Assembly (NCBI RefSeq): GCF_000428825.1
Contig: NZ_AUAR01000003.1
Coordinates: 1-64,000 of the forward strand
From: Desulfomicrobium escambiense DSM 10707
Lineage (GTDB): Bacteria; Desulfobacterota; Desulfovibrionia; Desulfovibrionales; Desulfomicrobiaceae
Reading direction: 5' to 3'
Length of the DNA: 64,000 nucleotides
Below the pieces are notes generated by a model. The model did no database searches. It was not told the DNA's origin and was given only the letters and a program-made list of their open reading frames with translations. The position numbers and the translations under genes are program-made. Positions 1,254 through 29,892 of the stretch are shown here, piece after piece (the stretch's first letter is position 1; every line of letters begins with the position of its first letter).

Positions 1254-1280
1254 CGTGTTCAAACGAACTGAGCCACTTCT
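1254..1280. repeat. IS right terminal inverted repeat
   Basis: Reverse complement matches positions 1-27 at 18 of 27 places. It supplies the first codons of the downstream cysC-like reading frame, whose GTG start at 1255 lies inside this repeat. Confidence 0.8.
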
Positions 1281-1893
1281 TCATGTTGTTTCTTATCGGG
1301 GCTCAGTTCGACGTGAGAATAGAGAAAAGCTTCTCGGGCAGACCAGCATGGTGCTGTGGTTCACAGGCCTATCTGGTTCGGGCAAATCCACCATAGCCCA
1401 TGCTGTGGAAGAGAGATTGCACGCCATGAGCAAACTGACCTACGTTTTTGATGGAGACAACGTGCGACAAGGATTGTGCAGAGACTTAAACTTTTCTCCA
1501 AAGGACCGAACCGAAAATTTACGACGAATTTCTGAGATGATCAGACTTTTCCTGGATGCAGGCATTATCTGTCTGGCTGCATTCATTTCCCCCTTAAAAG
1601 CGGATCGGAAAAAGGCAAGAGACATGATAAACTGCGGGCGATTCTTTGAAATTTACGTCGATTGTCCGTTAGAAGTATGTGAACAACGTGATGTTAAAGG
1701 CCTATACAAGCTTGCTCGCTCTGGAAAAATCAAAAATTATACGGGTATATCATCGCCGTATGAAGTACCCGATCATCCAGACTTAATTCTTAACACGAAT
1801 ATCTATTCGCTTAATGAATGCGTGACCAAAGTTATGGATAGTTTTTTTACCCAGGAAATATTCGAAAAAAAATTGCGACAGATAATCGCATAA
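1255..1893 (+). CDS. cysC: Adenylylsulfate (APS) kinase, 5' end rewritten by IS insertion
   Basis: Phosphorylates adenosine 5'-phosphosulfate to PAPS, the sulfate donor of sulfotransferases. Walker A is GLSGSGKST at residues 38-46; the FDGDNVRQGL and DRTENLRRI segments and the VDCPLEVCEQRD and KGLYKLARSG stretches are typical of CysC. The first nine codons and part of the tenth come from the IS right end, so the native start was lost; in-frame candidates are the GTG at 1255 inside the IS repeat or the ATG at 1348, which would begin only seven residues before Walker A. The catalytic core is intact. A sulfate reducer does not need PAPS for respiration, so the role is probably glycan sulfation together with the sulfotransferase gene at 5179. 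Confidence 0.88.
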   Translation: MFKRTEPLLHVVSYRGSVRRENREKLLGQTSMVLWFTGLSGSGKSTIAHAVEERLHAMSKLTYVFDGDNVRQGLCRDLNFSPKDRTENLRRISEMIRLFLDAGIICLAAFISPLKADRKKARDMINCGRFFEIYVDCPLEVCEQRDVKGLYKLARSGKIKNYTGISSPYEVPDHPDLILNTNIYSLNECVTKVMDSFFTQEIFEKKLRQIIA

Positions 1894-1937
1894 TCACATA
1901 ACACACTGTTTTTGCGATAGAATAGGAATAACTTGCA

Positions 1938-2912
1938 ATGCGAATCTTGGTCACAGGCGGAGCCGGGTACATCGGGAGCCATACCTGCAAGGCACTGACT
2001 CATCAGGGGCATACCGTGATCGTCTATGACAACCTGTCCACTGGGCACAGGGAATTGGTCCGCTGGGGAGATTTTGTATTCGGCGACATCCTTGACACGC
2101 AACGTCTCCGCGCCTGCATCAGACAGTATCGAATCGAAGGCATCATCCACTTTGCTGCCAGCGCGTACGTTGGAGAGTCGGTGGTTGAGCCGGGCAAGTA
2201 CTTTCGCAACAATGTTTGCGGAACACTCAGCATCCTTGATGCAATGCGGGACGAAGGCGTGCCATACATTGTGGTTTCGGGAACCTGTGCGGTCTACGGT
2301 TCACCGGACAATATGCCCATCATTGAAGACACTCCTGCCAATCCTATCAACCCTTACGGGGCAAGCAAACTGTTCATGGAAAGAATGCTTGCTGATTTCG
2401 AAAATGCACATGGCATCAGATGGATATCGCTGCGCTACTTCAACGCTGCAGGTTGTGATCCGGACGGGGAAACCGGGGAATGGCACGAACCGGAAACCCA
2501 CCTGATTCCACGAGCGCTGATGGCGGCAATCGGTAAAATACCTGCACTGGAAATTTTTGGCGGTGACTATCCGACTCCTGATGGAACTTGTGTTCGGGAC
2601 TATGTTCATGTGTCGGATTTGGCGGATGCACACTTACGGAGTATTGATTTCCTAAGCAAGGGTAAAAAGAGTCACATAATCAACCTCGGTGCCGAAAAAG
2701 GAACCTCTATCTACGAAGTAATATCTACCGTAAAAGAAGTGACTGGCGTATCAGTCCCTTACATCATATCTCCCAAAAGAACAGGAGATCCGCCTATACT
2801 TCAAGCAGACTCGACAAAAGCGAAAATAATTCTCGAGTGGAAACCGAAATACTCAAATTTAAACTTTAATATTAATTCATCTTTCTTGTGGATTAATAAA
2901 TACAATAAATAA
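1938..2912 (+). CDS. galE: UDP-glucose 4-epimerase
   Basis: Interconverts UDP-glucose and UDP-galactose (or the N-acetyl forms) to supply sugars for the glycan made by this cluster. A short-chain dehydrogenase fold with the NAD motif GGAGYIG at residues 7-13, catalytic Tyr140 and Lys144 in YGASK, and a Thr at 116 in SGTCAVYG where Ser or Thr is expected. Length (324 aa) is normal for GalE. The last third of the gene becomes AT-rich, marking the start of the AT-rich island. It lies 44 bases after cysC on the same strand and is probably cotranscribed. Confidence 0.95.
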   Translation: MRILVTGGAGYIGSHTCKALTHQGHTVIVYDNLSTGHRELVRWGDFVFGDILDTQRLRACIRQYRIEGIIHFAASAYVGESVVEPGKYFRNNVCGTLSILDAMRDEGVPYIVVSGTCAVYGSPDNMPIIEDTPANPINPYGASKLFMERMLADFENAHGIRWISLRYFNAAGCDPDGETGEWHEPETHLIPRALMAAIGKIPALEIFGGDYPTPDGTCVRDYVHVSDLADAHLRSIDFLSKGKKSHIINLGAEKGTSIYEVISTVKEVTGVSVPYIISPKRTGDPPILQADSTKAKIILEWKPKYSNLNFNINSSFLWINKYNK

Positions 2913-2926
2913 TTACAAGAATTATT

Positions 2927-3988
2927 ATGAATAATAATGAATTTGTACACACGATAATGGATAGATTTTATGAACATATACATAATTATGAGAAGAATAA
3001 TTATGATGAATATCGCTATTCTTTTGACAAAATAGACAGATCTATTTTTTTTGATATGAATAAACATAGAAAATATTTTGACTACTTTATTAATAATCAT
3101 TCTTTTTTTTACAAAACATACAATTTACTTTCTGACTTAGAATCGAAAAATCTATTTATACAATTAATTTTATTTCGATTACTTGGACATTTACATGTCC
3201 GAATAAAAAATGAGTACAATTCGATAGTTGAATCTGCCAACAGAAATGCACTCACTAAAATATCAAAACCATCGCAATTTACAAACATTGACAAATACGG
3301 CAATCTTTTTCATTTCCCAAACATTCAATACAACGGACACAATATTAGTCTAGACTGCAGACACGTAAATATTATATCTTCTTTTTTAAAAAAACAATAT
3401 AGACTACATAGAAGCAGCATTACCGTGACACCTAATGCCGGAGACATAGTTTTAGATTGCGGCGGATGCTTCGGCGATACAGCAATAAGCTTCGCATGCG
3501 ATGTCAAAAATAATGGAAAAATTTTAGTATTCGAACCATTGCCATCATATATAAATATTATAAAACATAATATATTACAAAATAATTTTTCGAATCGAAT
3601 TAAAATATGTCCTTATGCAGTCGGCAGAAAAACACTCAATATCAACAGCACTTTTATTGAAGAAAACATTGAAATTTCACCAGGATTTTCAACTGTTGAA
3701 ATGACGGATAAAGTGCCAATTATAAGCATTGATGATTTTGTAGAAAATGAACAAATCAAAAAAATCAATTTTATAAAAATGGATATTGAAGGATCTGAAC
3801 TCGATGCACTTAAAGGAGCCCAGAAAACGATAACTCGGCACAAACCCAAACTTGCCATATCACTTTATCACAAAATCGAAGATTTTATAAAAATTCCAAT
3901 TTATATATCACAGCAACACCCAAAATACAATTTCTACATCGATCACTATACAATACATGACGAAGAAACTGTACTTTATTGCATATAA
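2927..3988 (+). CDS. FkbM-family methyltransferase
   Basis: Predicted SAM-dependent O-methyltransferase, probably acting on a sugar of the surface glycan. The SAM-binding motif is GDIVLDCGGCFGDTA at about residues 171-185, followed by the acidic VFEPLP strand. The hallmark FkbM segment KMDIEGSELDALKGA lies about 100 residues later. The N-terminal 120 residues are unrelated to the core, rich in Asn, Tyr and Phe, and could be a substrate-binding extension. Base composition is strongly AT-rich compared with the backbone, suggesting horizontal origin. The substrate cannot be read from the sequence. Confidence 0.85.
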   Translation: MNNNEFVHTIMDRFYEHIHNYEKNNYDEYRYSFDKIDRSIFFDMNKHRKYFDYFINNHSFFYKTYNLLSDLESKNLFIQLILFRLLGHLHVRIKNEYNSIVESANRNALTKISKPSQFTNIDKYGNLFHFPNIQYNGHNISLDCRHVNIISSFLKKQYRLHRSSITVTPNAGDIVLDCGGCFGDTAISFACDVKNNGKILVFEPLPSYINIIKHNILQNNFSNRIKICPYAVGRKTLNINSTFIEENIEISPGFSTVEMTDKVPIISIDDFVENEQIKKINFIKMDIEGSELDALKGAQKTITRHKPKLAISLYHKIEDFIKIPIYISQQHPKYNFYIDHYTIHDEETVLYCI

Positions 3989-4041
3989 ACAATAATATTT
4001 TTCCATAAAGAAACACGAACTAATACACAAAAGAGCAGCAC

Positions 4042-5175
4042 ATGAGTGACGCCAAATTCATATCTGAAGAAAAAATTTATCTCACTAAGCCATTTTTACC
4101 TCCATTATCAGAATTCAACCAATATCTTAATGAAGTATGGCGCAGTAGATGCCTGACAAATCAGGGAAAATATCACAATGAATTCGAAGAAGCCCTGGCA
4201 AAATTTTTAAAAGTGCCCTATGTATGTTTATTCACAAATGGTACGCTAGCTTTAATTACAGCCCTACAGGTCTTACGCATTACAGGCGAAGTAATCACAA
4301 CGCCATACAGTTTTGTCGCCACAACGCACTCATTATGGTGGAACAACATTAAACCAGTTTTTGTAGATATCGATCCTGTCTATTGCAACCTAAATCCTGA
4401 CAAAGTTGAGTCTGCCATAACCCCTCAAACAACAGCTATTCTGCCAGTACACGTCTACGGAAACCCTTGCCAAGTAGACAAACTACAAGAAATTGCAGAC
4501 ACTTATGGATTACGCCTCATATATGACGCAGCACATGCTTTTGGCGTAACGATTAATGGGCATTCACTTCTGTCCTACGGGGACTTATCAATACTCAGTT
4601 TCCACGCAACCAAAGTGTTCAACACATTTGAAGGTGGAGCCATTATATGCCACGATGCACGGACGAAAAAACGCATTGACTACCTAAAAAATTTTGGTTT
4701 TGCGGGGGAAACGTCCGTTGTCGCCCCTGGCATTAACGCCAAGATGAATGAATTCCAAGCAGCACTCGGACTTTTGCAACTCAAATATTTCGAAAATAAC
4801 AAGAATCTTCGTCTCATTATCGCCGAATCGTATCGTGAAAATCTCAAAGCAATTCCAGGAATTTCTTTTCTAGAGCCTGCAAAAAATGTAACCTGGAACA
4901 ATGCTTACTTCCCGATATTTGTTGATGCAGAACAATTTGGCCACACCCGGGACGAGCTCTATAACCATCTCAAAATGTACAATTACATTTGTAGGCGATA
5001 TTTTTATCCATTAATTTCAAACTTTAATTGCTACAAAGATCTTCAGAGCACGCAAAATTTACAAATTGCAAACATTAAATCGAGCCAAGTAATCTGCCTA
5101 CCCATTTATCCAGATTTAAATCTTATACATGTAAATAATATTTGCAAAATTATAAAATCTTACAAAGAAGACTGA
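4042..5175 (+). CDS. DegT/DnrJ/EryC1/StrS-family sugar aminotransferase
   Basis: PLP-dependent enzyme that typically converts a nucleotide-linked ketosugar into an aminosugar. FTNGTLALITAL is the PLP phosphate-binding region, YDAAHAFG holds the PLP-contacting Asp, and the Schiff-base lysine is Lys191 in HATKVFNTFEGG. At 377 aa it is full length. It sits in the AT-rich glycan operon, 3 bases before the sulfotransferase gene. No partner dehydratase or dehydrogenase is visible in the window, so the ketosugar precursor is unknown. Confidence 0.92.
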   Translation: MSDAKFISEEKIYLTKPFLPPLSEFNQYLNEVWRSRCLTNQGKYHNEFEEALAKFLKVPYVCLFTNGTLALITALQVLRITGEVITTPYSFVATTHSLWWNNIKPVFVDIDPVYCNLNPDKVESAITPQTTAILPVHVYGNPCQVDKLQEIADTYGLRLIYDAAHAFGVTINGHSLLSYGDLSILSFHATKVFNTFEGGAIICHDARTKKRIDYLKNFGFAGETSVVAPGINAKMNEFQAALGLLQLKYFENNKNLRLIIAESYRENLKAIPGISFLEPAKNVTWNNAYFPIFVDAEQFGHTRDELYNHLKMYNYICRRYFYPLISNFNCYKDLQSTQNLQIANIKSSQVICLPIYPDLNLIHVNNICKIIKSYKED

Positions 5176-5178
5176 TAA

Positions 5179-6066
5179 ATGAATCTTAATTTTCAAAAAA
5201 TTACTTTTTTTTTCCTCCTTGGCAATCCAAGATCTGGAACAAGCCTTTTGAGACTAATGCTTAACGCTAATAGCAACATCGTTGTACCTCCAGAATGCGG
5301 ATTTTACCACTGGTTGAGCAAAAAATACCAAACTCTGGACTTTAGCAATAATTCATCATTTCTCAAAAGCTACCTAGAAGATTTGAAACAATCTAAAAAA
5401 ATGGAAACATGGGATATCGACTTCAGTTATTTAATATACCTTATAAAAAAAACAAAACCCACCACATACGAACAAGTTAGCCTACTAGTATATTTAACAT
5501 ATGCAGCAAAATTTAATAAATTACCCAGAGTAATAGGAGATAAAAATAATTATTACACAAATCATATATGCGACCTAAATAAACTAAATAGCAATCCAAA
5601 ATATATATACATAGTACGAGACTGTAGAGATGTTGTATGCTCATATAGAGCGCTTAATAAAATAGAAACAAAATCTATATATAAACCTGATTTACCTTAT
5701 GACATTGAAACTGCTTGTATTTCATGGAATAAGAACAACACAAATATAATCAATTTTTTAAAAACAATACCAAAAAATCAATATCACGTTATTCGTTTCG
5801 AGGATCTTATACAACATACGGAAGAAATACTGAAAAAGGCATGCAATTTTCTTGAAACTGATTATGAAAACAAAATGATCGAATACTATATAGAAAATGC
5901 ACAAAAAAACATAGAACCTGTCGAAACTCTAGACTGGAAAAAAGAAACACTGAGCAAACCAAATATTAACAAAATAGGCACATATAAGCATGAATTAACC
6001 GCGGAACAAATTAAAGCCATTGAGAAAGCGTCTGAAAAATTAATGCAAGAATTCGATTACTTGTAA
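5179..6066 (+). CDS. PAPS-dependent sulfotransferase family protein
   Basis: Predicted to transfer sulfate from PAPS to an acceptor, here probably a sugar hydroxyl. The 5'-phosphosulfate loop is GNPRSGTSLLR starting at residue 15, and the 3'-phosphate-binding segment IVRDCRDVVCSYR lies near residues 145-157; both are hallmarks of the family. It is followed by the RFEDLIQHTEEILKKAC helix region usual for these enzymes. Length 295 aa. It shares an operon with an APS kinase, which can make its donor. Strongly AT-rich codon use. The acceptor is unknown. Confidence 0.85.
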   Translation: MNLNFQKITFFFLLGNPRSGTSLLRLMLNANSNIVVPPECGFYHWLSKKYQTLDFSNNSSFLKSYLEDLKQSKKMETWDIDFSYLIYLIKKTKPTTYEQVSLLVYLTYAAKFNKLPRVIGDKNNYYTNHICDLNKLNSNPKYIYIVRDCRDVVCSYRALNKIETKSIYKPDLPYDIETACISWNKNNTNIINFLKTIPKNQYHVIRFEDLIQHTEEILKKACNFLETDYENKMIEYYIENAQKNIEPVETLDWKKETLSKPNINKIGTYKHELTAEQIKAIEKASEKLMQEFDYL

Positions 6067-6116
6067 TCTCATTCCATTTGCCTGAAGCAATAACCCTTGA
6101 TCGCCATTTACAGCGA

Positions 6117-9100
6117 ATGAAAATGCCAGCAAAACAAACACCATTAGTTTCCGTAATAGTTCAAACGTTTCAGCATGAACTATATATCAAAGAATGCCTT
6201 GACAGCATATTAGCCCAAATCACGAATTTTACGTTCGAGATTATCATAGGAGAAGATGAATCATCTGATGGAACAAGAAAAATTTGTATAGAATATGCCA
6301 CTCAATATCCGAGTATTATAAGACTATTTTTGCGATCACGAGAAAATGTCATATATATAGATGACGTACCTACAGGAAGACATAACTTAATTGAAAATAT
6401 AAAAGCTACAAAAGGAAAATATATTGCCATATGCGAAGGAGATGACTACTGGACCGACAAAAATAAACTTCAAAAGCAAGTCAATTTTTTAGAAAAAAAC
6501 TCTAACTTTAGCAGCTGTTGCCACGAAACAATAACTTTATTTGAAAACGGGAATACAGGAAAAATATACGGACAAGATATTCACAACATTATTACAGCCG
6601 AAAATACAATCAACACATCATCCCCATTTCACACATCATCTTTTATATTTAAAAAAGAATGTCTTCCTGATGCGATACCATCATGGATATACAAAGTATT
6701 TAGTGGAGACATGGCATTATTTTCTATCATTTCAAAACGCGGCCCTATTGGCAAAATTTCAGAAATAATGAGTGTTTATAGAAAACACAGCGCAGGACTA
6801 ACAGAGTTAAAAAATCTAAAAGACAATTTTCATCAAAACAGAATTTTACTAATAAATTATTTAAACGAATATCACGATTTCAAGTATCAGCAAAAAGCAT
6901 CTGATGTGATCGCATACCACAACAGACAAATAAATCATACCAACAACGATTTTTGTTTAGACAAAACTGATCAAAAAAAATCTATATTAAATATTTTTCA
7001 TAACAATGCACATTTCGAGTTTAATAAAATTTCAACGCCACCAACAATGCTCAATCACTCTGAAATACAACTATTGTATTGGCTATCAAAAAATACGTAT
7101 AGCTCCCGTGGCGCATTGGTTGAACTTGGGTCCTGGCTTGGAGGGTCAACAATAGCATTCGCCAAGGGACTTTGTGAAAATTCAAATGTAAATTTTAAAA
7201 AATTATATAGCTATGATAATTTTATTTGGACATCATGGTACGATAGATACAATCTTGATATAAAAAAATCTGTCGGAGAGAGTTTTCTCGATGTTTTTTT
7301 AGAGAATATTAAGCAATACCGCGAAATCATTGACGTCAAACATGGCGATGTATGCAAAATTGGCTGGAACGGCACTCCCATAGAATTAATTTTCATCGAT
7401 ATCATGAAAAGCCAAGACACAGCACGATGCGTAGCATACAATTTTTTCCCTAGCTTAATACCTGAAATTTCTATTATAGTTCATCAAGATTTCAAACATT
7501 TCCATGAATTCTGGATTCACCTTATGATGTACAGGCTACGAAGCCATTTCACACCAATTATAAATTTACAAAATGCACCCACTGTAGTTTTTAAATACAT
7601 TAAATTACTAACAAATGCAGATATTGAGAATGCATGCGCGTTCAACACTTTTACTACCAAAGAAATTGATTTAGCATTTCAATATTCATTGAATATTTCC
7701 CATGGGAGCAATCAAATTTTTATTGATGAAATTAAGCAAGCTCATAATAATGCTTTAAAATTTTGCAAATGCATCACTAAAGAAAATTTACCTAAACATG
7801 CATCAAAACCAAATGAAATAATTCATATGAATGACAAATTTCTCGACATAAGTTTTTCAGCAGATTTTTGTGACCTTCATGTCATTCGCAAAGCGATTAA
7901 AGACAATCTTAACAAATCCATACCGTTATTTCACGGCACGCTACTCGACATCGGCTGCGGCCAAATGCCTTACAAAAACCATATCCTGAAGGCGAGCCCT
8001 AACATTAAGAGATACATCGGATTGGACTTTGCCCATGGCAAGTATGCAGACATCAAGCTACCCGACATAACCTGGGACGGCAAAACAATTCCTCTGGACA
8101 GCGCCAGTGTTGACTGCTGCCTTGCTACAGAAGTACTTGAGCACTGTCATCAACCAATGACTGTCCTCAAGGAAATCCGCCGCGTCCTTAAGCCAGACGG
8201 TGTATTCTTTTTCACCTCCCCTTTCATATGGCCACTACATGACACACCGCACGATCATTACCGATACACCCCATTCTCCTTGAAACTTCTTTTGAATGAA
8301 GCTGGTTTTGAAGATGTGCAAATCAATGCCATGGGAGGATGGGATGCTTCATTAGCGCAGATGATAGGACTGTGGCTAAAACGAGCCCCTATGACAGACG
8401 ACATCCGGCAACAGATGAGCCAAAAACTTTTCCCTTTTTTTAAGCAACTTGTCGAACTCGACAACCACGCTTCGCAGCAACAACATGCTGACAATACCAT
8501 TTCTCCAGGTTGGTCCGGAATAGCATACACCCCCCTCAAAACCGTCACTAATTCAACAGATATTATATCCGAACCGAGTCATCAAAAAATTTGCATCGTC
8601 AGGCATGAACATTTTGCATACTCCCAAACCTTCATCGAAGATCATATAGCATACATTTCTCAAAACACATCTGTGATTCATGGCGAATCATTTCCAATGT
8701 TCGACCAGAACAAAAAATGCATTCTCAGTCAAAAATACATTAAACCGACAACTGACTATCAATATAATGTCTCGAAGAAAATATACACAGATGCATTCCA
8801 ATATTATTTAAATGACAATAAATTTGACGTTATTCTTTCCGAATTTGGCACAGTCGCAGCTAAAATTTACAAAGCCTGTGAAAAATCAGGAATTCCTTAT
8901 GTTGTACATTTTCATGGGTATGACGCCACCGCTACACCAACGTTACAAGCTTATAAACATGAATATAGCGACATCTTTAAAAGTGCTGCCGCACTTATTG
9001 TCGTCTCCAAGGCTATGCGCGACAAACTAATATCGATAGGAGCGCCAATAAACAAAGTATTTCTCAATCCTTACGGGGTAGACGTTCAGAGAGATGATTT

Positions 9101-10421
9101 GGCGTCACCAGAAAGTTCAAAACCGATCTTTCTTGCCGTAGGAAGATTTGTAGAGAAAAAAGCCCCCCACATCACCATTCAAGCCTTTGAGAAAACAGCA
9201 AAATCAATCCCTAATTCCCGACTTGTCATGGTTGGCGACGGCCCACTTCTCAAGGCATGTCAAGAACTGGCCAAAAAACTAAACATACAAAATCAAGTTC
9301 AATTTGCTGGCGTCCAAACGCGGCGATCAGTCGCTAAATTACTACGTCTCAGCAGAGCTTTTTTACAGCACTCCGTAACTGCGGCCAACGGAGATACCGA
9401 AGGCCTGCCCTTGGCAATTCTCGAAGCCGGGGCGGCAGGATTACCTGTCATCAGTACGCGACACGCAGGCATACCCGATGCAGTCATTGAAGGCGAGAAC
9501 GGCCTCCTCGTTGACGAGGGGGACGTGCAAAAAATGTCTGAAGCCATATTCCGACTGGCAATTAACCCCAATCTGGCCGGGTGGATGGGAAAAAACTACC
9601 ACCGACGAGTTGTCGAGCACTTTTCAAGAGAAACATCCATTCAAGGCTTACGAACCATTCTGCGAAGCGCAGCAGACAGCAGGCACAACCCAACCTCAAC
9701 ACCGAACCACATCAGAAGCGACGTATCTGAACCTCCAACTACAAGACATTTTGCAGAATCATCGAACAATCTTCGTTACTGTCCAATATGCCAACAAACT
9801 TCTCAAGCATTTGTCGACTTCGGCAGACCTGTACGAAAAAACGCCATGTGCCCACAATGCGGATCACTGGAACGGCACCGTTTTATCTGGAAATACTTAC
9901 AAGAAAAGACAAATTTATTTCAACAACCAGACACACAAACCCTTCATTTTGCACCAGAACCATGTCTTGAAATTAACTTTAGACGTCTGTTTGCAAATCA
10001 ATATATAACTGCCGATCTTTATGACAAAAAAGCAGATATCCAAGCAGACATAACAGACATAAATTTTTCAAGTGAAAGTTTTTCTTTTATTTATTGCAGC
10101 CATGTACTTGAACATGTGCCAAATGACCGCAAAGCAATGCAGGAAATATATCGCATTTTAAAATTAAACGGACTAGCTGTTATTATGGTTCCAATTAAAG
10201 GAGAAATAACAGATGAAGATTTTTCAATTACCAATCCATCTGAGCGCCAAAAAAGATACGGACAAGAAGATCATGTCAGATATTACGGAATGGACATAGT
10301 CGACAGATTACGAGAAGCCGGTTTCAAGGTGGAGCATATTGAACCTCAGGACGTTTTCGCACACAAGGACATAGCGCATATGAGCCTCGGTGGAGAAAAA
10401 CTTCTCTTATGTCGCAAATAA
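6117..10421 (+). CDS. Five-module glycosyltransferase/methyltransferase fusion protein
   Basis: A 1434-aa protein that appears to combine several glycan-building enzymes. Modules (numbered from this start): GT2 glycosyltransferase at about 6-260 (PLVSVIVQTF, then EGDDYW); a class I methyltransferase-like domain at about 325-480 (GALVELGSWLGGST); a Methyltransf_11 domain at about 605-760 (LLDIGCGQ, then LATEVLEHC); a GT4 transferase at about 824-1195 (AVGRFVEKKAPH, then EGLPLAILEAGAAGLPV); and a C-terminal methyltransferase at about 1220-1434 preceded by a zinc-ribbon-like CPIC...CPQC pair. The frame is open from a TTG at 6078; neither start has a clear ribosome site, and I chose the ATG at 6117. 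GC content visibly rises over the third and fourth modules. Acceptors are unknown. Confidence 0.85.
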   Translation: MKMPAKQTPLVSVIVQTFQHELYIKECLDSILAQITNFTFEIIIGEDESSDGTRKICIEYATQYPSIIRLFLRSRENVIYIDDVPTGRHNLIENIKATKGKYIAICEGDDYWTDKNKLQKQVNFLEKNSNFSSCCHETITLFENGNTGKIYGQDIHNIITAENTINTSSPFHTSSFIFKKECLPDAIPSWIYKVFSGDMALFSIISKRGPIGKISEIMSVYRKHSAGLTELKNLKDNFHQNRILLINYLNEYHDFKYQQKASDVIAYHNRQINHTNNDFCLDKTDQKKSILNIFHNNAHFEFNKISTPPTMLNHSEIQLLYWLSKNTYSSRGALVELGSWLGGSTIAFAKGLCENSNVNFKKLYSYDNFIWTSWYDRYNLDIKKSVGESFLDVFLENIKQYREIIDVKHGDVCKIGWNGTPIELIFIDIMKSQDTARCVAYNFFPSLIPEISIIVHQDFKHFHEFWIHLMMYRLRSHFTPIINLQNAPTVVFKYIKLLTNADIENACAFNTFTTKEIDLAFQYSLNISHGSNQIFIDEIKQAHNNALKFCKCITKENLPKHASKPNEIIHMNDKFLDISFSADFCDLHVIRKAIKDNLNKSIPLFHGTLLDIGCGQMPYKNHILKASPNIKRYIGLDFAHGKYADIKLPDITWDGKTIPLDSASVDCCLATEVLEHCHQPMTVLKEIRRVLKPDGVFFFTSPFIWPLHDTPHDHYRYTPFSLKLLLNEAGFEDVQINAMGGWDASLAQMIGLWLKRAPMTDDIRQQMSQKLFPFFKQLVELDNHASQQQHADNTISPGWSGIAYTPLKTVTNSTDIISEPSHQKICIVRHEHFAYSQTFIEDHIAYISQNTSVIHGESFPMFDQNKKCILSQKYIKPTTDYQYNVSKKIYTDAFQYYLNDNKFDVILSEFGTVAAKIYKACEKSGIPYVVHFHGYDATATPTLQAYKHEYSDIFKSAAALIVVSKAMRDKLISIGAPINKVFLNPYGVDVQRDDLASPESSKPIFLAVGRFVEKKAPHITIQAFEKTAKSIPNSRLVMVGDGPLLKACQELAKKLNIQNQVQFAGVQTRRSVAKLLRLSRAFLQHSVTAANGDTEGLPLAILEAGAAGLPVISTRHAGIPDAVIEGENGLLVDEGDVQKMSEAIFRLAINPNLAGWMGKNYHRRVVEHFSRETSIQGLRTILRSAADSRHNPTSTPNHIRSDVSEPPTTRHFAESSNNLRYCPICQQTSQAFVDFGRPVRKNAMCPQCGSLERHRFIWKYLQEKTNLFQQPDTQTLHFAPEPCLEINFRRLFANQYITADLYDKKADIQADITDINFSSESFSFIYCSHVLEHVPNDRKAMQEIYRILKLNGLAVIMVPIKGEITDEDFSITNPSERQKRYGQEDHVRYYGMDIVDRLREAGFKVEHIEPQDVFAHKDIAHMSLGGEKLLLCRK

Positions 10422-10588
10422 TCAGCTCCGAATCCGGAACCACTTGCAAAACACTACAAATCAAACAAGCTTACTAAAATTTTCTTTGAAATTTACTTAC
10501 AACAATTTTTTCCATTTGCATTTGTGCAAAAATGGCCAAATCATACTAAAAAACATATCAATAAATATTTTTATATAGGAAAAAAATA

Positions 10589-11845
10589 ATGACTTCCTCA
10601 GACAACAAAGCTGACTCATATATTAATTTGGCCAAATATTATAAATCCATAGGCAATATAAAAAAATACGAACAGTATTCCGAACCAGCGCTCAAATCTG
10701 GCAAACAATTACCAGAAACTCATTCATTCACTCAAGACAGATCGGACCACAACTCAAACAACAACCTTCCTCATATTGAAGAAATTATTAAATTATATAA
10801 CAATAAACAATATAAAATCCTCCTTAAACTCGCTTCAAGCAACCCAGCACACGAACTCCTCTCCTACATTGCGCCAAGCATCTATTTTGCCACCGAAAAT
10901 CCCGAACAAGCAGAGCATTCCGCCACTCATATCAACGAAGAGGAAGAACGACTGATCAGGACAAAAACTGCACGCATCTGGCACAAGCTAAACAAACCAT
11001 TGGATGGCGAACCACGGGTTCACCTCCTCATCCTTACTTACAACCGGGAAAAGTTTGTCAGCCAAGCTCTAACGCAACTCGCTCAAACAGAATACAAAAA
11101 CTTCGCCGTATACATTGCTGACAATGGATCATCAGACGCAACGTGGGATGTGGCGACACAGGCAGTCGCTCACTTTCCTGACCATGTGCACGTCAGCATG
11201 GAACGCCTTCCCACAAACATCGGGAGACCCGCTGGACATAACTGGCTTCTTACAAAATATGACCACTCCTTAGCGGACTATATCGCAATTGGAGATGACG
11301 ACTTGACCGAGGTGCCATCTGACTGGCTGACCAAGATGGTCCAAACCGCCAAAGCCTTCCCGAACTCTGCCGCAGTGGGAGGCAAGGCTCTTTATAGCCA
11401 CAGACCAAACACTATACACGGATGCGCGCATAATATCATTGAGTTCTCATCTCGCCTCTCTGTAAGCAATGCATCAGATTTGATTGACTTTGGCCAATTC
11501 GATTACGTTGACAAGGTCGATCACGTAACCGGATGTTTACACATCTATGACCGCAAAATCTTATTTGATGAAGTTGGCTTATTCGACATTAGCCTTTCAC
11601 CATGCCAATATGTAGATGTTGAACATCATTTGCGCGCCAGACTGAAAGGTTATGACATCATTTACAACGGGCTAATTTCATTTCGTCACATGAAAGCTAT
11701 GGGTAAAGAATCTCAAATAAATAGAACTATGGCCGGAAATGCGATTGGCAACACAATCAAGGTACTATATAAACACGACAAATCACTCGTTCTCGACACG
11801 CTTACGCGTCTATCAGAACAACGGATTGCATGGCTCCACTCATAA
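10589..11845 (+). CDS. GT2-family glycosyltransferase with N-terminal helical extension
   Basis: Predicted inverting sugar transferase of the GT-A fold (418 aa). The catalytic domain begins near residue 143 (HLLILTYNREKF), with DNGSSD near 178-183 and the metal-binding GDDD at 235-238. The first 140 residues are AT-rich and polar and open with a TPR-like helix pair (YINLAKYYKSIGNIKKYEQY), perhaps a protein-binding extension. An AT-rich gap of 167 bases precedes it and ends in GGAAAAAAATA before the ATG. It is the penultimate gene of the + strand glycan cluster. Confidence 0.85.
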   Translation: MTSSDNKADSYINLAKYYKSIGNIKKYEQYSEPALKSGKQLPETHSFTQDRSDHNSNNNLPHIEEIIKLYNNKQYKILLKLASSNPAHELLSYIAPSIYFATENPEQAEHSATHINEEEERLIRTKTARIWHKLNKPLDGEPRVHLLILTYNREKFVSQALTQLAQTEYKNFAVYIADNGSSDATWDVATQAVAHFPDHVHVSMERLPTNIGRPAGHNWLLTKYDHSLADYIAIGDDDLTEVPSDWLTKMVQTAKAFPNSAAVGGKALYSHRPNTIHGCAHNIIEFSSRLSVSNASDLIDFGQFDYVDKVDHVTGCLHIYDRKILFDEVGLFDISLSPCQYVDVEHHLRARLKGYDIIYNGLISFRHMKAMGKESQINRTMAGNAIGNTIKVLYKHDKSLVLDTLTRLSEQRIAWLHS

Positions 11846-11875
11846 AAACAGTCGAATTCACATATCAAACAACTC

Positions 11876-12970
11876 ATGAACAGCAAAATTAGCATAGTAA
11901 TTCCGACCTGGAACAACTCTAATCTTTTAAGACAATGCATTAAATCAATATTGAGCAATACCGTTAATAATAAATTCGAGATAATTGTTGTTGATAATGG
12001 ATCAACAGACAACACCAAAAACAAAATCTCTGAATTTCAATCATTACATGAAATTCATTATATTTTCAGTAAAAAAAATCTTGGATTTGCCAAAGCATGC
12101 AATCTAGGTGCCTTACAAGCCAACAATAAATTCATATTTTTTTTGAATAACGACACTGAAGTTCTTCAAGGTTGGGATATTGAACTACTCAAGTGTTTGC
12201 GCGCAGACGATCGTATTGGAATAGCAGGAGGAAAGCTTATATACCCGGACAAAACAATACAACATGCTGGTATAGCTTTTGATCAGCAAACTGTATTCCA
12301 TGTTTACAGACACTTTCACCCTATTCACCCAGGCGTAAACAAAAAAAGGGAATTTCAAGCTGTCACTGGAGCCTGCTTTCTGATCAGGAAAGAATTGTTT
12401 TTATCAGCGGGAATGTTTGATGAATCTTTTATCAACGGGTTTGAAGATCTTGATTTGTGCTTTCGGATAAGAAAGAATGGTTACAAAGTTTTTTATACCC
12501 CTGGATCCAACGTCATACATCACGAAAGCAAAACACCAGGAAGACACCTCCATCATCATGAAAATGCCGAATTGTTCAGCAAAAGGTGGAGACATGATGT
12601 CGTCAACGACATAAATCTCATTTACGCAAAAGACGGATTGTACCCCCTGGAGCCGGGAGAAAACATCCCGCAAGGGAATTGGCTCAAAGACACCAATCCA
12701 AACCCACTATGGAGCATGGCGCAATCCTTCCGCAAATCTGGCAAGACACGTGAATCCATTATAGCATTTAATGAAGCGTTACGGTTCAATCCATATGACT
12801 TACGCAAATTAAAGATTATTGAAGAAATTGGAGACTTACATCTTGATCAAAACAATTTACAAGCAGCAAAAAACTGCTTTTTAGCAATAACATCAGCCAT
12901 ACCTGTTCCAAGGCTTAGCAGTAAAATAAATAAAATAAACGAACTTCTCTCTAAAAATGTCGTTAATTAA
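11876..12970 (+). CDS. GT2-family glycosyltransferase (WbbL-like) with C-terminal TPR-like tail
   Basis: Predicted transferase of the rhamnosyltransferase-like GT2 group. Motifs are VVDNGSTD (38-45), the metal-binding NND (91-93) and the GFEDLDLCFR segment near 188-197 where the catalytic base is expected. Residues 285-364 look like two TPR-type helix pairs (LWSMAQSFRKSGKTRESIIA and IGDLHLDQNNLQAAK). Its stop codon overlaps that of the opposing gene at 12967 within TTAATTAA. That opposing gene is a homologue with the same motif order, so this is a pair of diverged paralogues facing each other. AT-rich, unlike its GC-rich counterpart. Confidence 0.87.
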   Translation: MNSKISIVIPTWNNSNLLRQCIKSILSNTVNNKFEIIVVDNGSTDNTKNKISEFQSLHEIHYIFSKKNLGFAKACNLGALQANNKFIFFLNNDTEVLQGWDIELLKCLRADDRIGIAGGKLIYPDKTIQHAGIAFDQQTVFHVYRHFHPIHPGVNKKREFQAVTGACFLIRKELFLSAGMFDESFINGFEDLDLCFRIRKNGYKVFYTPGSNVIHHESKTPGRHLHHHENAELFSKRWRHDVVNDINLIYAKDGLYPLEPGENIPQGNWLKDTNPNPLWSMAQSFRKSGKTRESIIAFNEALRFNPYDLRKLKIIEEIGDLHLDQNNLQAAKNCFLAITSAIPVPRLSSKINKINELLSKNVVN

Positions 12971-24393: not shown

Positions 24394-27300
24394 GTGAACA
24401 TATCTCCCGCCCTGCCTTGGTCCTCCCGACTCGGATTCTGCGCAATACTGATCCTTTTCGCTCCCGCCGCCGCCCTCGTGTTCGGGATGCAGCCACCGGA
24501 GCCCTTCCCGGCCACGCCGGCGGCCATGGCCATCCTGGCCGGAGCCATCGGATTGCTGTCCGCGGCCGGGCTCACGCTGATCACGACCCACCGCCTGCCG
24601 AGCCCGCCGGCGGCGCTGTGCGACTTCCTGATCCCGGCCGTACTGGTGCTTGCGATGACTCCCCACGTCACCATCTGGCAGGCTCCGGCGGCCTGGTCCG
24701 ACCTGCTCAGGCTTGGCCCCCTGTGCGCCGCGTTCTTCGCCCTGGCTCAGATTCTTCTCGTGTCCATCACCCTGGCCCGCAAGGGACGACACCCTTCCAT
24801 GCTGGCTCAGGCCAGCCTCCTGGCCGTGCCCTTCGTCTTCAACTGGCTCCTGCTCCTGCAATCGCCGCACCTGCTCCAGCAACTGGCAGGCTCGCTGCCA
24901 GCAGTCAACGCACTGCCCCCCCGGGCCATGGAACTCGGCGGGCGGGTCATCGTCCTGGCCGTGTTCAACACCTTCTCGGCCGTCATCCTCAACGCCCTGT
25001 GCATCGGCGGCCTGCTGCGCGAGCCGAAGACCTTCGTCCTGCTGGCCGGCAGCGCCGCCCTGGCCGGCCTGAGCCCCCTGGCCGCCGACCTGGGCTCGTC
25101 CCAGGCGGCCGCGTCCCTGCCGCTCGGTCTGTCGGTCCTGGCCGCCATCGCCGCCGTGGCCGTGGCCCAGGCCGGGCTGTGGAGCCAGACCTTTCTCATG
25201 ACCGGCCTGCTCATGGACGCCTTGAAGGGCCGGCGACCCGCCGGGTACTGGGGGGCGCACCACTTCCGGGAGGGCCTGGGCAAGGGCGCGGTCTACAGCG
25301 CCCTGTTCCTGGGGCTCTTGTTCCTGGTCCAGGCCATGGCCGACTCGTCCCTGCTGGAGGCGGCCAGACTGACCATCCCCCTGGCCACGCATCTGGCCGT
25401 GGGCGCCGCGCTCATGCCCCTGGCCAAGACCATCCTCGAGACCTTCGACGGCAGCCCGGCCTTCTTCTCCCGCCTCCTGGGCAACGCCTGCCGCCCCCAT
25501 CTCTACCTGCGCGGGGCGCTGCTGGGGCTCGGCCTGCATCTCGTCCCGGTTCAGACGCTCATGCGCGAGACACCGGGCACCCGCTTCCTGCTCGGGGCGG
25601 GCATGGGGGCCGTGGCCTTTGCCGGAGCCGGCATGCTCATGGACCTGCAGGAAAAGATCCGGGGCAGACGGCAGCACCTGCAGAGCTGGCGCGTCTACCT
25701 GAACGGGACGCTGCTGGGCGGCTTCGTGGGCGGGGCCATCGCCTGGTACGTGGACCCCAGCCAATCCGCTGTGGTGCTGAACAAATTCCGCATGTACGTC
25801 ACCCTGCACGTCCAGAACCCGCAGGACTACGTCATCTACCCGCTGTTCAGCAAATGGGGCGCCATGAATCTCGGCCCCCAGACCGGCAGCGCACGGCTGC
25901 TCTTCAACGAGTCCGTGTCGGGCGTCATCAACTGGTCCCTGGCCGCCCCGCTCTTCAGCGTCAATTTCTTCTTCCTGACGGCCCTCTTCGCCCGCAGCTG
26001 GGCGCCGGTGCGCCTCATGGCCAGCCGCCAGGGCGTCGTCGCCATCGCCGAACAAACCGTGCGCGTGCTGCGCTGGGGCCTGTGGATGGCGCCGGTCATC
26101 TACTCCCTGCTGCGCATCTCGCCCGACCCCACCTGGTACAACCAGGACGGAGCCTTCCGCACCCTGGCCGCCATCTGGCAGAGCATCGTCCTCACGCCCG
26201 AGGCCTTCCGGGGCTGGAGCATCGAGACGTTCCTGCACCTCCTGGCCTACGACTGGGTACGCATCCTCATCTGGTTCGACCACATGGGCCTGCGCGTGGC
26301 CACGCTCGTCAACCTGTCCTTTGTCGGCGGCGACGCCCTGGACGAACTGCTGGCCCGTTTCCAGGGACACGCCGGCCGCACGCGCTGCATCCCCGAGGCC
26401 CTGCGCCGCTTCGCCACCTGGGCCCCGCTGCTCATCCCCTTCTTCCTGCCCATGGGCGCGGACTGGGCCCATGTCTGGGACGGCGCCGAAGCCATCCAGA
26501 AAACGGGCCAGGGCCAGGCCTCGCCCCTGGCCGCGCTCATCGCCGTCTTCGCCGTCACCGCTTTCGCGGTCAGCATCGTCAGGGTACGCCACCGCAAGCA
26601 GCCGACCGGCGACATGTGCGTTGCCTGCGGCCTGCAACGGCCAGGCTTCCGACCTGCGGACGAGATCACCCTGTGCAACGGCGTGTACACGGCGGTCTTC
26701 ACCCAGGACGGCCGGGGGTACAGCCGCGTCTTCAGCTCCGTCAGGCACGGCGCGGAGTACGATCTGACCAACCGCCCCACGTCCCGCGCCCACAACGCCG
26801 GCAAATTCCTCTACCTGCAGGAGGAAGGCCGGGAGCCGTGGACCCTTGGCTTCCGCCCCATCACGCGCGACGACGCCCAGACCACCGTCGAGCGCACCTC
26901 GCCCCTCTCGGTCAGCCTGAGCTGCAGGTGCCAGGACATCGAGGCCGAAGCCGACGTGAACGTCCCGGCGGACCTGAACGCCGAGATCTGGAGCATCCGC
27001 CTGACGAACACGGGGACGGAGGTCCGGCGGATCGATCTGGTTTCCTACCGGGAAATCTGCCTCAACGACCCCAACCCACAGCTGCGCCACCCCTTCTACA
27101 ACAGGCAGCACATCGCGACCTGGTTCGTGCCGGGGCTTGGGGCCGTCTTCGCCCGCAACCGGATGATCAAGACCTCCGGTTCCTCCTCCGGCGGCCCGCG
27201 GCCTTCGCCCGAAGTCTACTTCCATGCGGCGCAGGTCACCGATTCCCGGGTTTCGCTGCGCGGCTACCAGGACAGCCGCATGGCATTTGTCGGCGACAGG

Positions 27301-29892
27301 ACCCTGCGCGACCCCGACGGATTGAACCGTCCGCCGCTGCAGGCCGACGACACGGGCCTGCACTACACCTTCGACCCCATCGCGAGCCTTTTCCTGCGCT
27401 TCGAACTCGAACCCGGCGAAACGGTCGAGGCGGTATTCGTGGACGGGTACGCCGCGTCGGCGGAGGAAGGGGAACAGATGCTGCGCCGAATCCTGAACCC
27501 GGCCGGCGAAGCCCGGCCCCATCCGCTCAAGCCCGACTGCAAACCCCGGGCAATCCGGGAGCCCTCGGTCGAGGAGATGCTCCACCCCGCGCCGGAGAGC
27601 GCCTACAGCTTCTCGGAGGACGGAGAGGAGCTTCATTTGGGATGGAAGACCCCGCGCCGCTGGGCCCACCTCATGGTCAACGAACTGGGGTACGGGACGC
27701 TGGTGACCAACGACGGAGCGTTCACCTCCTTCATGGGCAACTCGCAGCAGAACGCCCTGACCCCATTCGCCCCGGACTCCATGACCACCCAGGACCCCGG
27801 ACAGGTCCTTTTCCTGCGCGACACGGCCACGGGCGACATCACCTCGCCGACATACATCCCCTTCCGGGAGAGGAGGGCTGAACTGAACGTGACCTTCGGC
27901 CTGGGATACTGCGTCTTCCGCAAGTCCATGGGCCCCGTCACAACGGAACTGACGTCCTTCGTGCTCCACGACCAGCCCATGGAGGCCCGACTCCTGCGCA
28001 TCGTCAACTCCGGACAGAGCGCGGTGACCTACGACGTGACCTTCTTCGCGCAGATCATCCTGGCCGACGTGGCCATCGACTCCCTCGGCCAGATCGTCAC
28101 AGAGGAGGACCGCGAGGGCGGCGTCATCTTCTTCAGCCGCCCGGAGAACAGATTCCAGCGCGGTTGGGCCTTCGTGTCGTCAAGCCTGCCGTGCACGGCC
28201 ATGGAGACCAGTCTGAACCGGTTCATGGGCGCGGGACGGACCATTTTCGCGCCATGGATGGTCGAAACGGGCGAGCCCGACCTGGAGCAGGATGACGACG
28301 GGTACCGCGTGGCCGCGATTTCCGGCCGTCTGACCGTCCCGGCAGGCGGGGAAGCGCACATGCACGTGCTCATCGGCCAGGCCCCTGAACAGGGGGATTG
28401 CCGCCGGATGATGGCGTCCATGCGCCGCGGCGACGACGTGCTGGCCGCGCTGCGGCGGACGAAAGCCATGTGGCGGGAAACGCTCGGGACGATCAGGGTC
28501 GAAACGAGCAGCCCGGCCTTCGACCGGCTGGTCAACACCTGGCTCCCCTACCAGGCCCTCACGGCCCGCCTCTGGGGGCGACTGGGCCCGCATCAGCGCA
28601 GTGGCGCCTACGGCTTCCGGGACCAGTTGCAGGACGTCCTGCCCCTGACCATGCTGCGCCCCCGCCTGGCCCGGGCCCAGATTCTGCTGCACGCGCGCCA
28701 GCAGTTCCTGCGCGGCGACGTGCTGCAGTGGTGGCACCAGACCTGGGACGGCCGCACGGGCCTGGGCATCCGCAACCGGGCCTCGGACCCGCACTTGTGG
28801 TTGGCCTACATGACGTGCCGCTACGTGGAGGTCACGGGCGACCGCGCCATCCTGTCCGAACCGATCCCGTTCATCGAAGGCCCGTCCATCCCGCGCGGCC
28901 AGGAGGGCATCGCCTTTGTGCCGCGCCCGTCACGTGATCAGGGCACCCTGCTCGACCACTGCGTGCGCGGCATCGACCTGACCCTCTCGCACCTGGGCGC
29001 CAACGGCCTGCCCCTCATGGGCGCCCACGACTGGAACGACGGCCTCTCGGCCGTGGGCCCCCACGGCAAGGGCACGAGCGTCTGGCTCGGCTTTTTTCTG
29101 CACGACGTGCTGCGGACCATCACCCCGCTGGTGGAGGAGCGCTACGGCAAAGCCAAGTCCGAAGGGTATCGCTTCCAGGCCGCCAGATTGCGCGAGGCCC
29201 TGGACAGGATGTGGCAAGACGACCACTTCGTGCGGGCCGTTTCCGATTCCGGCGAGGTCCTGGACTACGCCGACGCCCTGTGCTCCTCCTGGCCCCTGCT
29301 GTCAGGGGCCACGGACCCGATCAAGGGCGAGGCGGCCCTGCGCTCGGGCCTGAAACATCTGGAGAAGGAGAACATGGTGCTACTTCTGACCCCGTTCTTC
29401 GATGAAGACTCCAAGCCCTACCCCGGCCGCATCGCCGACTACCCTCCGGGGGTGCGCGAAAACGGCGCCCAGTATTCCCACGGCGCATCCTGGCTGGTGG
29501 ACGCTCTGACCATCCTGGCTCGGCGGGCGTCGGAGGCAGGGGACGCACAGGCGGCAGCCCGCTGGCGCCGCGACGCCCTGCGGGTCTGGCTGAAGATATC
29601 GCCCCTGGCCCATGCCCGTGCTGAGGAGCTGCAGACCTACGGCCTGCCGCCCCACCAGCAGCCGGCCGACATCTTCCACGGCCCGGGCTTCGAGGGCCGC
29701 GGCGGGTGGAGCTGGTACACGGGCGCAGCCGCGCGGATGCTGTGGGCCGCTTATGGGCTCCTGGGCATCGGTACGCAGGACGGCAAGCCGCATCTGGACG
29801 CCACGATGCTCGAAGCCGACGGCGTCTTGGACGTGCGCAGGGTGTGGATGAACGGCAAGGAAGTCTTTACCGGAGGAAAGAAGCATGGCTGA
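24394..29892 (+). CDS. Very large membrane protein with C-terminal GH94 (former GT36) phosphorylase-like domains
   Basis: An 1832-aa protein. Residues 1 to about 745 are polytopic membrane sequence with many hydrophobic segments. From about 770 onward come two successive GH94-type beta-sandwich regions (about 775-1010 and 1090-1330), then an (alpha/alpha)6 catalytic barrel containing HDWNDG at 1545-1550, with Asp at the position of the GH94 general acid. The two-sandwich arrangement resembles the C-terminal half of cyclic beta-1,2-glucan synthase NdvB, but I see no GT84 glucosyltransferase domain. It may phosphorolyse or trim a periplasmic or surface beta-glucan. The start is a GTG with a weak ribosome site. 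Confidence 0.85.
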   Translation: MNISPALPWSSRLGFCAILILFAPAAALVFGMQPPEPFPATPAAMAILAGAIGLLSAAGLTLITTHRLPSPPAALCDFLIPAVLVLAMTPHVTIWQAPAAWSDLLRLGPLCAAFFALAQILLVSITLARKGRHPSMLAQASLLAVPFVFNWLLLLQSPHLLQQLAGSLPAVNALPPRAMELGGRVIVLAVFNTFSAVILNALCIGGLLREPKTFVLLAGSAALAGLSPLAADLGSSQAAASLPLGLSVLAAIAAVAVAQAGLWSQTFLMTGLLMDALKGRRPAGYWGAHHFREGLGKGAVYSALFLGLLFLVQAMADSSLLEAARLTIPLATHLAVGAALMPLAKTILETFDGSPAFFSRLLGNACRPHLYLRGALLGLGLHLVPVQTLMRETPGTRFLLGAGMGAVAFAGAGMLMDLQEKIRGRRQHLQSWRVYLNGTLLGGFVGGAIAWYVDPSQSAVVLNKFRMYVTLHVQNPQDYVIYPLFSKWGAMNLGPQTGSARLLFNESVSGVINWSLAAPLFSVNFFFLTALFARSWAPVRLMASRQGVVAIAEQTVRVLRWGLWMAPVIYSLLRISPDPTWYNQDGAFRTLAAIWQSIVLTPEAFRGWSIETFLHLLAYDWVRILIWFDHMGLRVATLVNLSFVGGDALDELLARFQGHAGRTRCIPEALRRFATWAPLLIPFFLPMGADWAHVWDGAEAIQKTGQGQASPLAALIAVFAVTAFAVSIVRVRHRKQPTGDMCVACGLQRPGFRPADEITLCNGVYTAVFTQDGRGYSRVFSSVRHGAEYDLTNRPTSRAHNAGKFLYLQEEGREPWTLGFRPITRDDAQTTVERTSPLSVSLSCRCQDIEAEADVNVPADLNAEIWSIRLTNTGTEVRRIDLVSYREICLNDPNPQLRHPFYNRQHIATWFVPGLGAVFARNRMIKTSGSSSGGPRPSPEVYFHAAQVTDSRVSLRGYQDSRMAFVGDRTLRDPDGLNRPPLQADDTGLHYTFDPIASLFLRFELEPGETVEAVFVDGYAASAEEGEQMLRRILNPAGEARPHPLKPDCKPRAIREPSVEEMLHPAPESAYSFSEDGEELHLGWKTPRRWAHLMVNELGYGTLVTNDGAFTSFMGNSQQNALTPFAPDSMTTQDPGQVLFLRDTATGDITSPTYIPFRERRAELNVTFGLGYCVFRKSMGPVTTELTSFVLHDQPMEARLLRIVNSGQSAVTYDVTFFAQIILADVAIDSLGQIVTEEDREGGVIFFSRPENRFQRGWAFVSSSLPCTAMETSLNRFMGAGRTIFAPWMVETGEPDLEQDDDGYRVAAISGRLTVPAGGEAHMHVLIGQAPEQGDCRRMMASMRRGDDVLAALRRTKAMWRETLGTIRVETSSPAFDRLVNTWLPYQALTARLWGRLGPHQRSGAYGFRDQLQDVLPLTMLRPRLARAQILLHARQQFLRGDVLQWWHQTWDGRTGLGIRNRASDPHLWLAYMTCRYVEVTGDRAILSEPIPFIEGPSIPRGQEGIAFVPRPSRDQGTLLDHCVRGIDLTLSHLGANGLPLMGAHDWNDGLSAVGPHGKGTSVWLGFFLHDVLRTITPLVEERYGKAKSEGYRFQAARLREALDRMWQDDHFVRAVSDSGEVLDYADALCSSWPLLSGATDPIKGEAALRSGLKHLEKENMVLLLTPFFDEDSKPYPGRIADYPPGVRENGAQYSHGASWLVDALTILARRASEAGDAQAAARWRRDALRVWLKISPLAHARAEELQTYGLPPHQQPADIFHGPGFEGRGGWSWYTGAAARMLWAAYGLLGIGTQDGKPHLDATMLEADGVLDVRRVWMNGKEVFTGGKKHG

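Follow-up and report, generated by a model that had tools for sequence, protein, structure and literature searches.

The first 64,000 nucleotides of contig NZ_AUAR01000003.1 of the sulfate reducer Desulfomicrobium escambiense DSM 10707 (positions 1 to 64,000 of the forward strand; this whole stretch is called the window below) contain a giant gene whose product is predicted to unite two glycosyltransferase (GT) and three methyltransferase (MT) modules in a single chain. The reading frame extends from TTG 6078 or ATG 6117 to the stop at 10421, which gives 1447 or 1434 amino acids (aa), and there is no stop in 1434 codons. A comparison with related chains shows that modules of this protein have apparently been exchanged and inserted at defined joints. 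The gene and its parts are the following.

6117..10421, + strand: five-module glycosyltransferase/methyltransferase, 1434 aa (Pfam and open frame)
6144..6932, + strand: module 1, GT2 glycosyltransferase, aa 10-272 (Pfam, alignment to the Bernardetia GT2, structure model)
6933..7778, + strand: module 2, Methyltransf_24 insert, aa 273-554 (Pfam, relatives, insertion boundaries)
7839..8516, + strand: module 3, Methyltransf_11, aa 575-800 (Pfam, alignment of 16)
8622..9701, + strand: module 4, GT4 glycosyltransferase, aa 836-1195 (Pfam, alignment, identities, tree)
9759..10418, + strand: module 5, zinc-ribbon class I methyltransferase, aa 1215-1434 (Pfam, alignment, AlphaFold2, VIA-align)
9780..9860, + strand: zinc ribbon CPIC...CPQC at the start of module 5 (alignment and motif scan)

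Pfam matches above the curated cut-offs follow each other in the order GT2, Methyltransf_24 (MT24), Methyltransf_11 (MT11), GT4, and zinc-ribbon methyltransferase (ZnMT). The E-values given here are whole-protein values, with the best stretch indicated: PF00535 at aa 12-130 (3.9e-16) for GT2, PF13578 at aa 335-456 (7.3e-7; 30.5 bits against a cut-off of 26.3) for MT24, PF08241 at aa 610-699 (1.4e-28) for MT11, PF00534 at aa 1000-1160 (1.7e-34) together with PF13439 at 894-992 for GT4, and PF13489 at aa 1287-1407 (1.3e-22) for module 5. An earlier interpretation made from the letters alone (the sequence-only reading) had proposed these modules and suggested a domain architecture search. The Pfam matches within one open frame bear out its five modules, their order and their coordinates.

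Motifs for binding nucleotide sugars or S-adenosylmethionine (SAM) were found in modules 1 to 4, including two Gly-rich SAM motifs (motif I), VELGSWLGGST at 335 in MT24 and LLDIGCGQMPY at 609 in MT11. The DXD motif of the GT2 is EGDDYW at 107, where D109 and D110 are invariant in 10 aligned rows; the E-x7-E motif of the GT4 is EGLPLAILE at 1095, and both of its glutamates are invariant in 10 aligned GT4s. Zinc-ribbon cysteines (CPIC at 1222, CPQC at 1245) precede the methyltransferase of module 5. The profile, the DXD motif and a mostly confident AlphaFold2 model, which matches chondroitin polymerase 2z86 (Z 23.5, 246 aligned, root-mean-square deviation (rmsd) 2.7), indicate that module 1 is a GT2 with a GT-A fold. 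Module 4 is predicted to be a GT4 (PF00534, GT-B) by its profile match and the E-x7-E motif, and MT24 is assigned its putative fold by its Pfam profile match. For module 5, an AlphaFold2 model with a mean predicted local distance difference test score (pLDDT) of 91.0 suggests a Rossmann-like class I methyltransferase fold: VIA-align superposes it on 1vl5, one of the class I methyltransferases, with Z 16.3, 150 aligned residues and rmsd 2.3, the superposition being looser in Foldseek.

The exact five-module order is rare. It was found in one of 348 genomes of the class and in one of 395 genomes of the phylum, in both cases the window's own genome (G000), and this agrees with the sequence-only reading, to which the order was unfamiliar. 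These large scans scored the best two candidates per genome, so that all counts of relatives are lower bounds; one scan of genome contigs used exact short peptides and detects close relatives only. Among 867 matching plasmid records there is none in which a single place accounts for 80% of the chain.

Parts of the chain are more widespread. The segment aa 529-1434 is matched in at least 19 of the 348 class genomes at E up to 1e-30, and at least 57 of the 395 drawn phylum genomes have matches at 1e-25. MT11-GT4-ZnMT occurs as one chain in at least four class genomes, G000 and G005 from one family and G322 and G324 from another. The ends around this core differ. The window chain has GT2-MT24 in front of it. 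G005 has GT4-GT4 in front, so that it too has a five-module chain (GT4-GT4-MT11-GT4-ZnMT), located in the same region of the chromosome as the window's. In G324 a domain with no name stands in front and an MT behind, and in G322 there is only an MT behind. Among the phylum genomes, G451 encodes an MT11-GT4-GT2 chain, whose GT2 is a relative of the GT2 gene downstream of the window's giant gene (E 3.6e-54), and G496 encodes an MT11-ZnMT chain. Flavobacterium salmonis encodes GT2, MT11 and GT4 in three separate genes that follow one another in this order; genes for a distant ZnMT (30%), a DegT protein and a hexapeptide acyltransferase stand just before the GT2. A Bernardetia plasmid encodes a GT2-MT11 fusion followed by another GT2 and then a GT4, and a single chain with the order MT-GT4-MT24 is encoded on a Nostoc plasmid.

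Of 14 close MT11 rows, counting the window's, 10 have a GT4 directly behind the MT11: in the same chain in the window, G005, G324, G322 and G451, and as the next gene in F. salmonis, G449, G477, G289 and G204. The four exceptions are Bernardetia (a GT2 gene between), G496 (ZnMT between), a second G322 copy (followed by a frame with no Pfam match) and Segetibacter (followed by a WbsX-type GT). Three distant MT11 rows (L075, L030 and L031; 27-34% identity) lie outside both the identity table and the 14. The second G322 MT11 (L054:7372-9369, + strand) is 84% identical to the first and is fused behind the N-terminal domain that also occurs in the giant chain of G324. We also observed a chain of 925/930 aa that combines two GT-like stretches (PF13524) with a GT2 (L037:11087-13861 and L053:5963-8752, both − strand). 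In G005 and G322 it immediately follows the gene for MT11-GT4-ZnMT and may be a conserved companion; behind the giant gene of the window no such companion was seen.

The GT4 of the core does not share the history of its flanks. The window MT11 is 62, 60 and 59% identical to those of G005, G324 and G322, and the window ZnMT is 55, 53 and 55% identical. The window GT4 is only 28, 30 and 28% identical to the GT4s of the same three genomes, which are mutually 69% identical. A GT4 tree was built from 26 rows, of which 12 are named and 14 are the best others with at least 250 aa among 57 matches. Five rows (G204, Bernardetia, F. salmonis, L002, L032) are flagged because their composition is odd, and four because their branches are long. 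In this tree the window GT4 pairs with that of G451 (support 100/100) inside a set of eight rows (95/91), which otherwise comprises the gene strings of F. salmonis, Bernardetia, G289, G204, G449 and G477. A single clade of the window GT4 with those of G005, G324 and G322 is rejected (approximately unbiased (AU) test, p ~1e-32); this clade was defined from the shared flanks, the identities having been seen beforehand. The corresponding MT11 grouping (window, G005, G324 and both G322 copies) is not rejected (AU p 0.195), and the four ZnMTs group together (83/94, a branch not starred for support). Thus the contrast between flanking methyltransferases of 53-62% and GT4s of 28-30% identity, together with the rejected clade, shows an apparent exchange of the GT4 between two conserved methyltransferases. 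The simplest account would be that the lineage of G005, G322 and G324 received another GT4 between both methyltransferases.

MT24 marks a second kind of change. The Bernardetia GT2-MT11 protein aligns to window residues 10-272 and 555-803, and the two aligned blocks meet in Bernardetia at 258-261. Since these ends adjoin, MT24 (residues 273-554, about 280 residues) sits in that joint, and the alignment shows it as an apparent insertion at the GT2/MT11 joint of a Bernardetia-type fusion. Relatives of MT24 were found in at least three of the 348 class genomes at E up to 1e-6, own genome included; the other two are frames of 319 and 387 aa.

The sequence-only reading would have lost ground had the modules always been separate genes in relatives. 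They are fused in G005, G322, G324 and G451, partly fused in Bernardetia and separate in F. salmonis. This range of states also bears on a plainer explanation, in which operon neighbours simply lost their stop codons and the modules work independently, with no assembly-line logic. The same modules are indeed separate consecutive genes in F. salmonis and, for MT11 and GT4, in G477, and they are half-fused in Bernardetia. However, the MT11-GT4-ZnMT fusion occurs in four genomes of two families, and its methyltransferases are conserved though the GT4 between them differs. We regard such a neutral fusion as unlikely.

The giant gene lies in a block of AT-rich genes at the left end of the window.

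389-1219: insertion-sequence-type transposase gene (rve/HTH_21; Pfam), which opens the contig next to the AT-rich island
1255..1893, + strand: adenosine 5'-phosphosulfate (APS) kinase (Pfam/profile match)
1938..2912, + strand: GalE-type UDP-sugar epimerase (TIGR01179 over cut-off)
2927..3988, + strand: FkbM-type methyltransferase (PF05050)
4042..5175, + strand: DegT sugar aminotransferase (PF01041)
5179..6066, + strand: sulfotransferase, directly upstream of the giant gene (PF13469)
10589..11845, + strand: GT2 gene directly downstream of the giant gene (Pfam)
11876..12970, + strand: GT2 with weak, below-cut-off C-terminal TPR matches, the last gene of the AT-rich block (Pfam)

The GC content of the genes from 1255 to 12970 is 0.29-0.48, and that of the next four genes rightward is 0.59-0.65. 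The content of this block (APS kinase, GalE, FkbM, DegT, sulfotransferase and GTs) suggests a surface-glycan island, whose product would bear an amino sugar and could be sulfated and methylated. The APS kinase would supply 3'-phosphoadenosine 5'-phosphosulfate for sulfation. Within the giant gene, GC in 60-codon bins varies between 0.26 and 0.57. GC at third codon positions (GC3) rises near codon 588 with a log-likelihood ratio of 12.9, and 500 shuffles gave 9.6 at most. Because module 5 turns AT-rich again (GC3 0.30), this step is only supportive of a chimeric origin.

The GC3 step could also mark a gene-model or assembly artefact that joins unrelated genes, the more so as the contig starts at window base 1 with an insertion-sequence gene. 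Such an artefact is very improbable: the frame is uninterrupted, other genomes again show the orders GT2/MT11 and MT11/GT4, and G005 has its different five-module chain in the corresponding place.

To the right of the block, the glgA, HTH-cupin and AMP-binding ligase genes are 87, 88 and 93% identical to G005 genes that share a contig with the G005 giant gene and have the same relative orientation as in the window. About 7 kb separate the ligase from the giant gene in the window, against about 17 kb in G005. Of 16 genomes of the genus, 14 retain the ligase, and stretches flanking it were taken from eight genomes other than these two. Four of these eight have frames of at least 900 aa with GT matches beside the ligase: G011 (1732 and 1019 aa), G002 (1160), G001 (1038) and G012 (914); the frame in G003 has 615 aa. 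The 1732-aa chain of G011 (L200:5961-11156, + strand) has the order MT-GT4-CDP-glycerol glycerophosphotransferase.

Further to the right, the window contains a 1832-aa open reading frame with GH94 domains (24394-29892; two supersandwich stretches and one catalytic match); the strand opposite has a 1247-aa open frame with no NCBIfam match at 1e-10.

Several other connections were considered and set aside. Flagellin glycosylation has no support: the flagellin genes and the giant gene are on different contigs in G000, G005 and G324, and in G322 at least about 1 Mb lies between them. A match to PADLOC mad2 over 603-734 (33.6 bits, 4.8e-9) was read as a generic methyltransferase match and not as a link to defence. 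A viral origin of the chain was rejected as no viral contig has any of six exact peptides drawn from the entire protein, a search limited to close relatives. For the ZnMT alone, relatives are common in predicted viral contigs (L096-L120; best about 45% identity, among the best 80 of 165 tblastn stretches, many of them weak), and 15 of 18 checked are standalone genes of 205-256 aa. In G551 (L092:8123-13156, − strand) an MT domain related to module 5 stands behind a condensation-adenylation-carrier module of nonribosomal peptide synthetase type in a protein of 1678 aa.

We lean, with only modest confidence, towards the view that the chain works in the cytoplasm as a soluble multi-transferase and makes part of a surface glycan, its activities being predicted from the modules. 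No transmembrane-like stretch was found in it (the highest 19-residue hydropathy mean is 1.38), so that it would work at the cytoplasmic face, probably on a lipid-linked intermediate. Each of the two GT modules would add one sugar to this intermediate, and the three MT modules would methylate it, adding up to three methyls. The reaction order is plausibly the module order, as in the virus enzyme A064R. We infer these activities, the substrates, the lipid-linked acceptor and the order from the modules and the locus. As for history, an old gene string GT2 - MT11 - GT4 may have been fused, after which MT24 would have been inserted at the GT2/MT11 joint and the zinc-ribbon MT added. A GT4 slot and outer modules that differ while both methyltransferases are kept would alter a sugar or linkage in a serotype-like locus.

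A bolder form of this view is tentative and, taken as a whole, rather doubtful: the chain may be a collinear assembly line for an oligosaccharide with exchangeable modules, similar in logic to modular polyketide synthases, in which module order is reaction order and the methyltransferases are the conserved frame. If so, a surface glycan could evolve by replacement of a GT between methyltransferases or by insertion of an MT at a joint. Surface glycans diversify quickly, which is usually described as an exchange of whole genes. Here exchange and insertion appear to occur inside one chain at defined joints, and separate, half-fused and fused states persist in other bacteria. It thereby becomes testable whether glycan enzymes act as ordered assembly lines and whether swapping the GT4 between conserved methyltransferases could re-engineer them.

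Some observations weigh against the proposed multi-transferase and its history. The five-row MT11 grouping is not recovered, G451 falling inside it beside the window (93/87), and the supports of the MT11 tree are weak (two of 11 inner branches starred). In module 5 LHFAPE replaces the usual Gly-rich motif I, the Gly-rich form being absent from all 17 rows aligned for this family, and the Foldseek superpositions of the module are loose (query-normalised TM 0.37-0.53 and rmsd 6.2-12.9 in the 50 rows listed). Structure prediction, which had been suggested as a check of all five folds, yields folds for modules 1 and 5; the MT24 model, made from an alignment with no relatives, has pLDDT below 50 across nearly all of 270-619, and a 4-row profile of MT24 found no matching solved structure. 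No GT chain was seen beside the ligase in the stretches from G004, G013 and G014, three of the eight. The window begins at a contig end, and the left part of the locus, with any exporter there, is beyond the data.

The exporter matters for a further alternative, in which the GTs polymerise a repeat, an MT caps it, and an ABC exporter recognises the cap, as for WsaE, O7 ORF6 or WbdD. Chains with several GTs and an MT do exist (WsaE, Klebsiella O7 ORF6), the genome has one Wzt_C protein (C15:49858), and a helical stretch is modelled at aa 234-302, partly with low confidence. Against this, Wzt_C (PF14524) is found only on contig C15 and neither in the window nor in G005, although G005 has the MT11/ZnMT pair in common with the window; this is no disproof as the left end of the locus lies beyond the contig start. 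A crude heptad scan gave no clear coiled-coil ruler, and no kinase family is among the 17 Pfam families matched. A pair of MTs lies between both GTs, and three MTs exceed the need of a single cap. We consider this polymerase-terminator role improbable. The sequence-only reading had proposed a methylated oligosaccharide unit whose growth and termination are combined in one protein, by analogy with WbdD/WbdA. The methylated glycan unit is plausible given the locus and the modules; the combination with termination has gained no positive support, as neither a kinase, nor (in a crude scan) a clear coiled coil, nor Wzt_C in the window was found.

A literature search on fused GT/MT chains gave WsaE, O7 ORF6 and A064R, which does not imply that others are absent from print. 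WsaE of Geobacillus stearothermophilus is a soluble protein with two GTs and one N-terminal MT, encoded beside wzm/wzt, which makes and caps a rhamnan of the S-layer glycan (PMC2943079, PMC3898925). It resembles the window chain as a single soluble chain with two GTs and an MT for a surface glycan. However, WsaE has three modules, whereas the window chain has five, including three MTs of which two lie between the GTs, and no wzt was seen nearby. WsaE is the best bacterial precedent. In A064R of virus PBCV-1, a GT, a second GT and an MT act in domain order and produce a methylated glycan end (PMC9614988, PMC7826918). It likewise has several transferases in one chain; unlike the window chain it is viral, has three domains and other GT families (its D2 is described as new), and acts on a protein N-glycan. 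By analogy, it is the best precedent for ordered action.

In Klebsiella pneumoniae O7 ORF6, for which the authors stress that modules are variably distributed among proteins (PMC11231755), an MT and two GT modules are also joined in one large chain of a surface-glycan locus. Unlike the window chain, ORF6 has kinase, carbohydrate-binding and coiled-coil parts, a terminator role and both GTs at the C-terminus. WbdD/WbdA of Escherichia coli O8/O9 are two proteins with a coiled-coil ruler, and Wzt recognises the cap; a terminator role needs such a cap-reading exporter, as in Klebsiella and E. coli (PMC11231755). They share with the window chain methylation and multi-GT chains in O-antigen synthesis, but the window chain is one protein with no clear coiled coil and no Wzt_C in the window. 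With at least two GT modules and one MT module and with predicted active-site motifs (module 5 having LHFAPE in place of motif I), the window chain appears to have the organisation of WsaE and A064R. It is probably a variant of the known multi-transferase glycan synthases, and what sets it apart is that modules have apparently been swapped or inserted at fixed joints.

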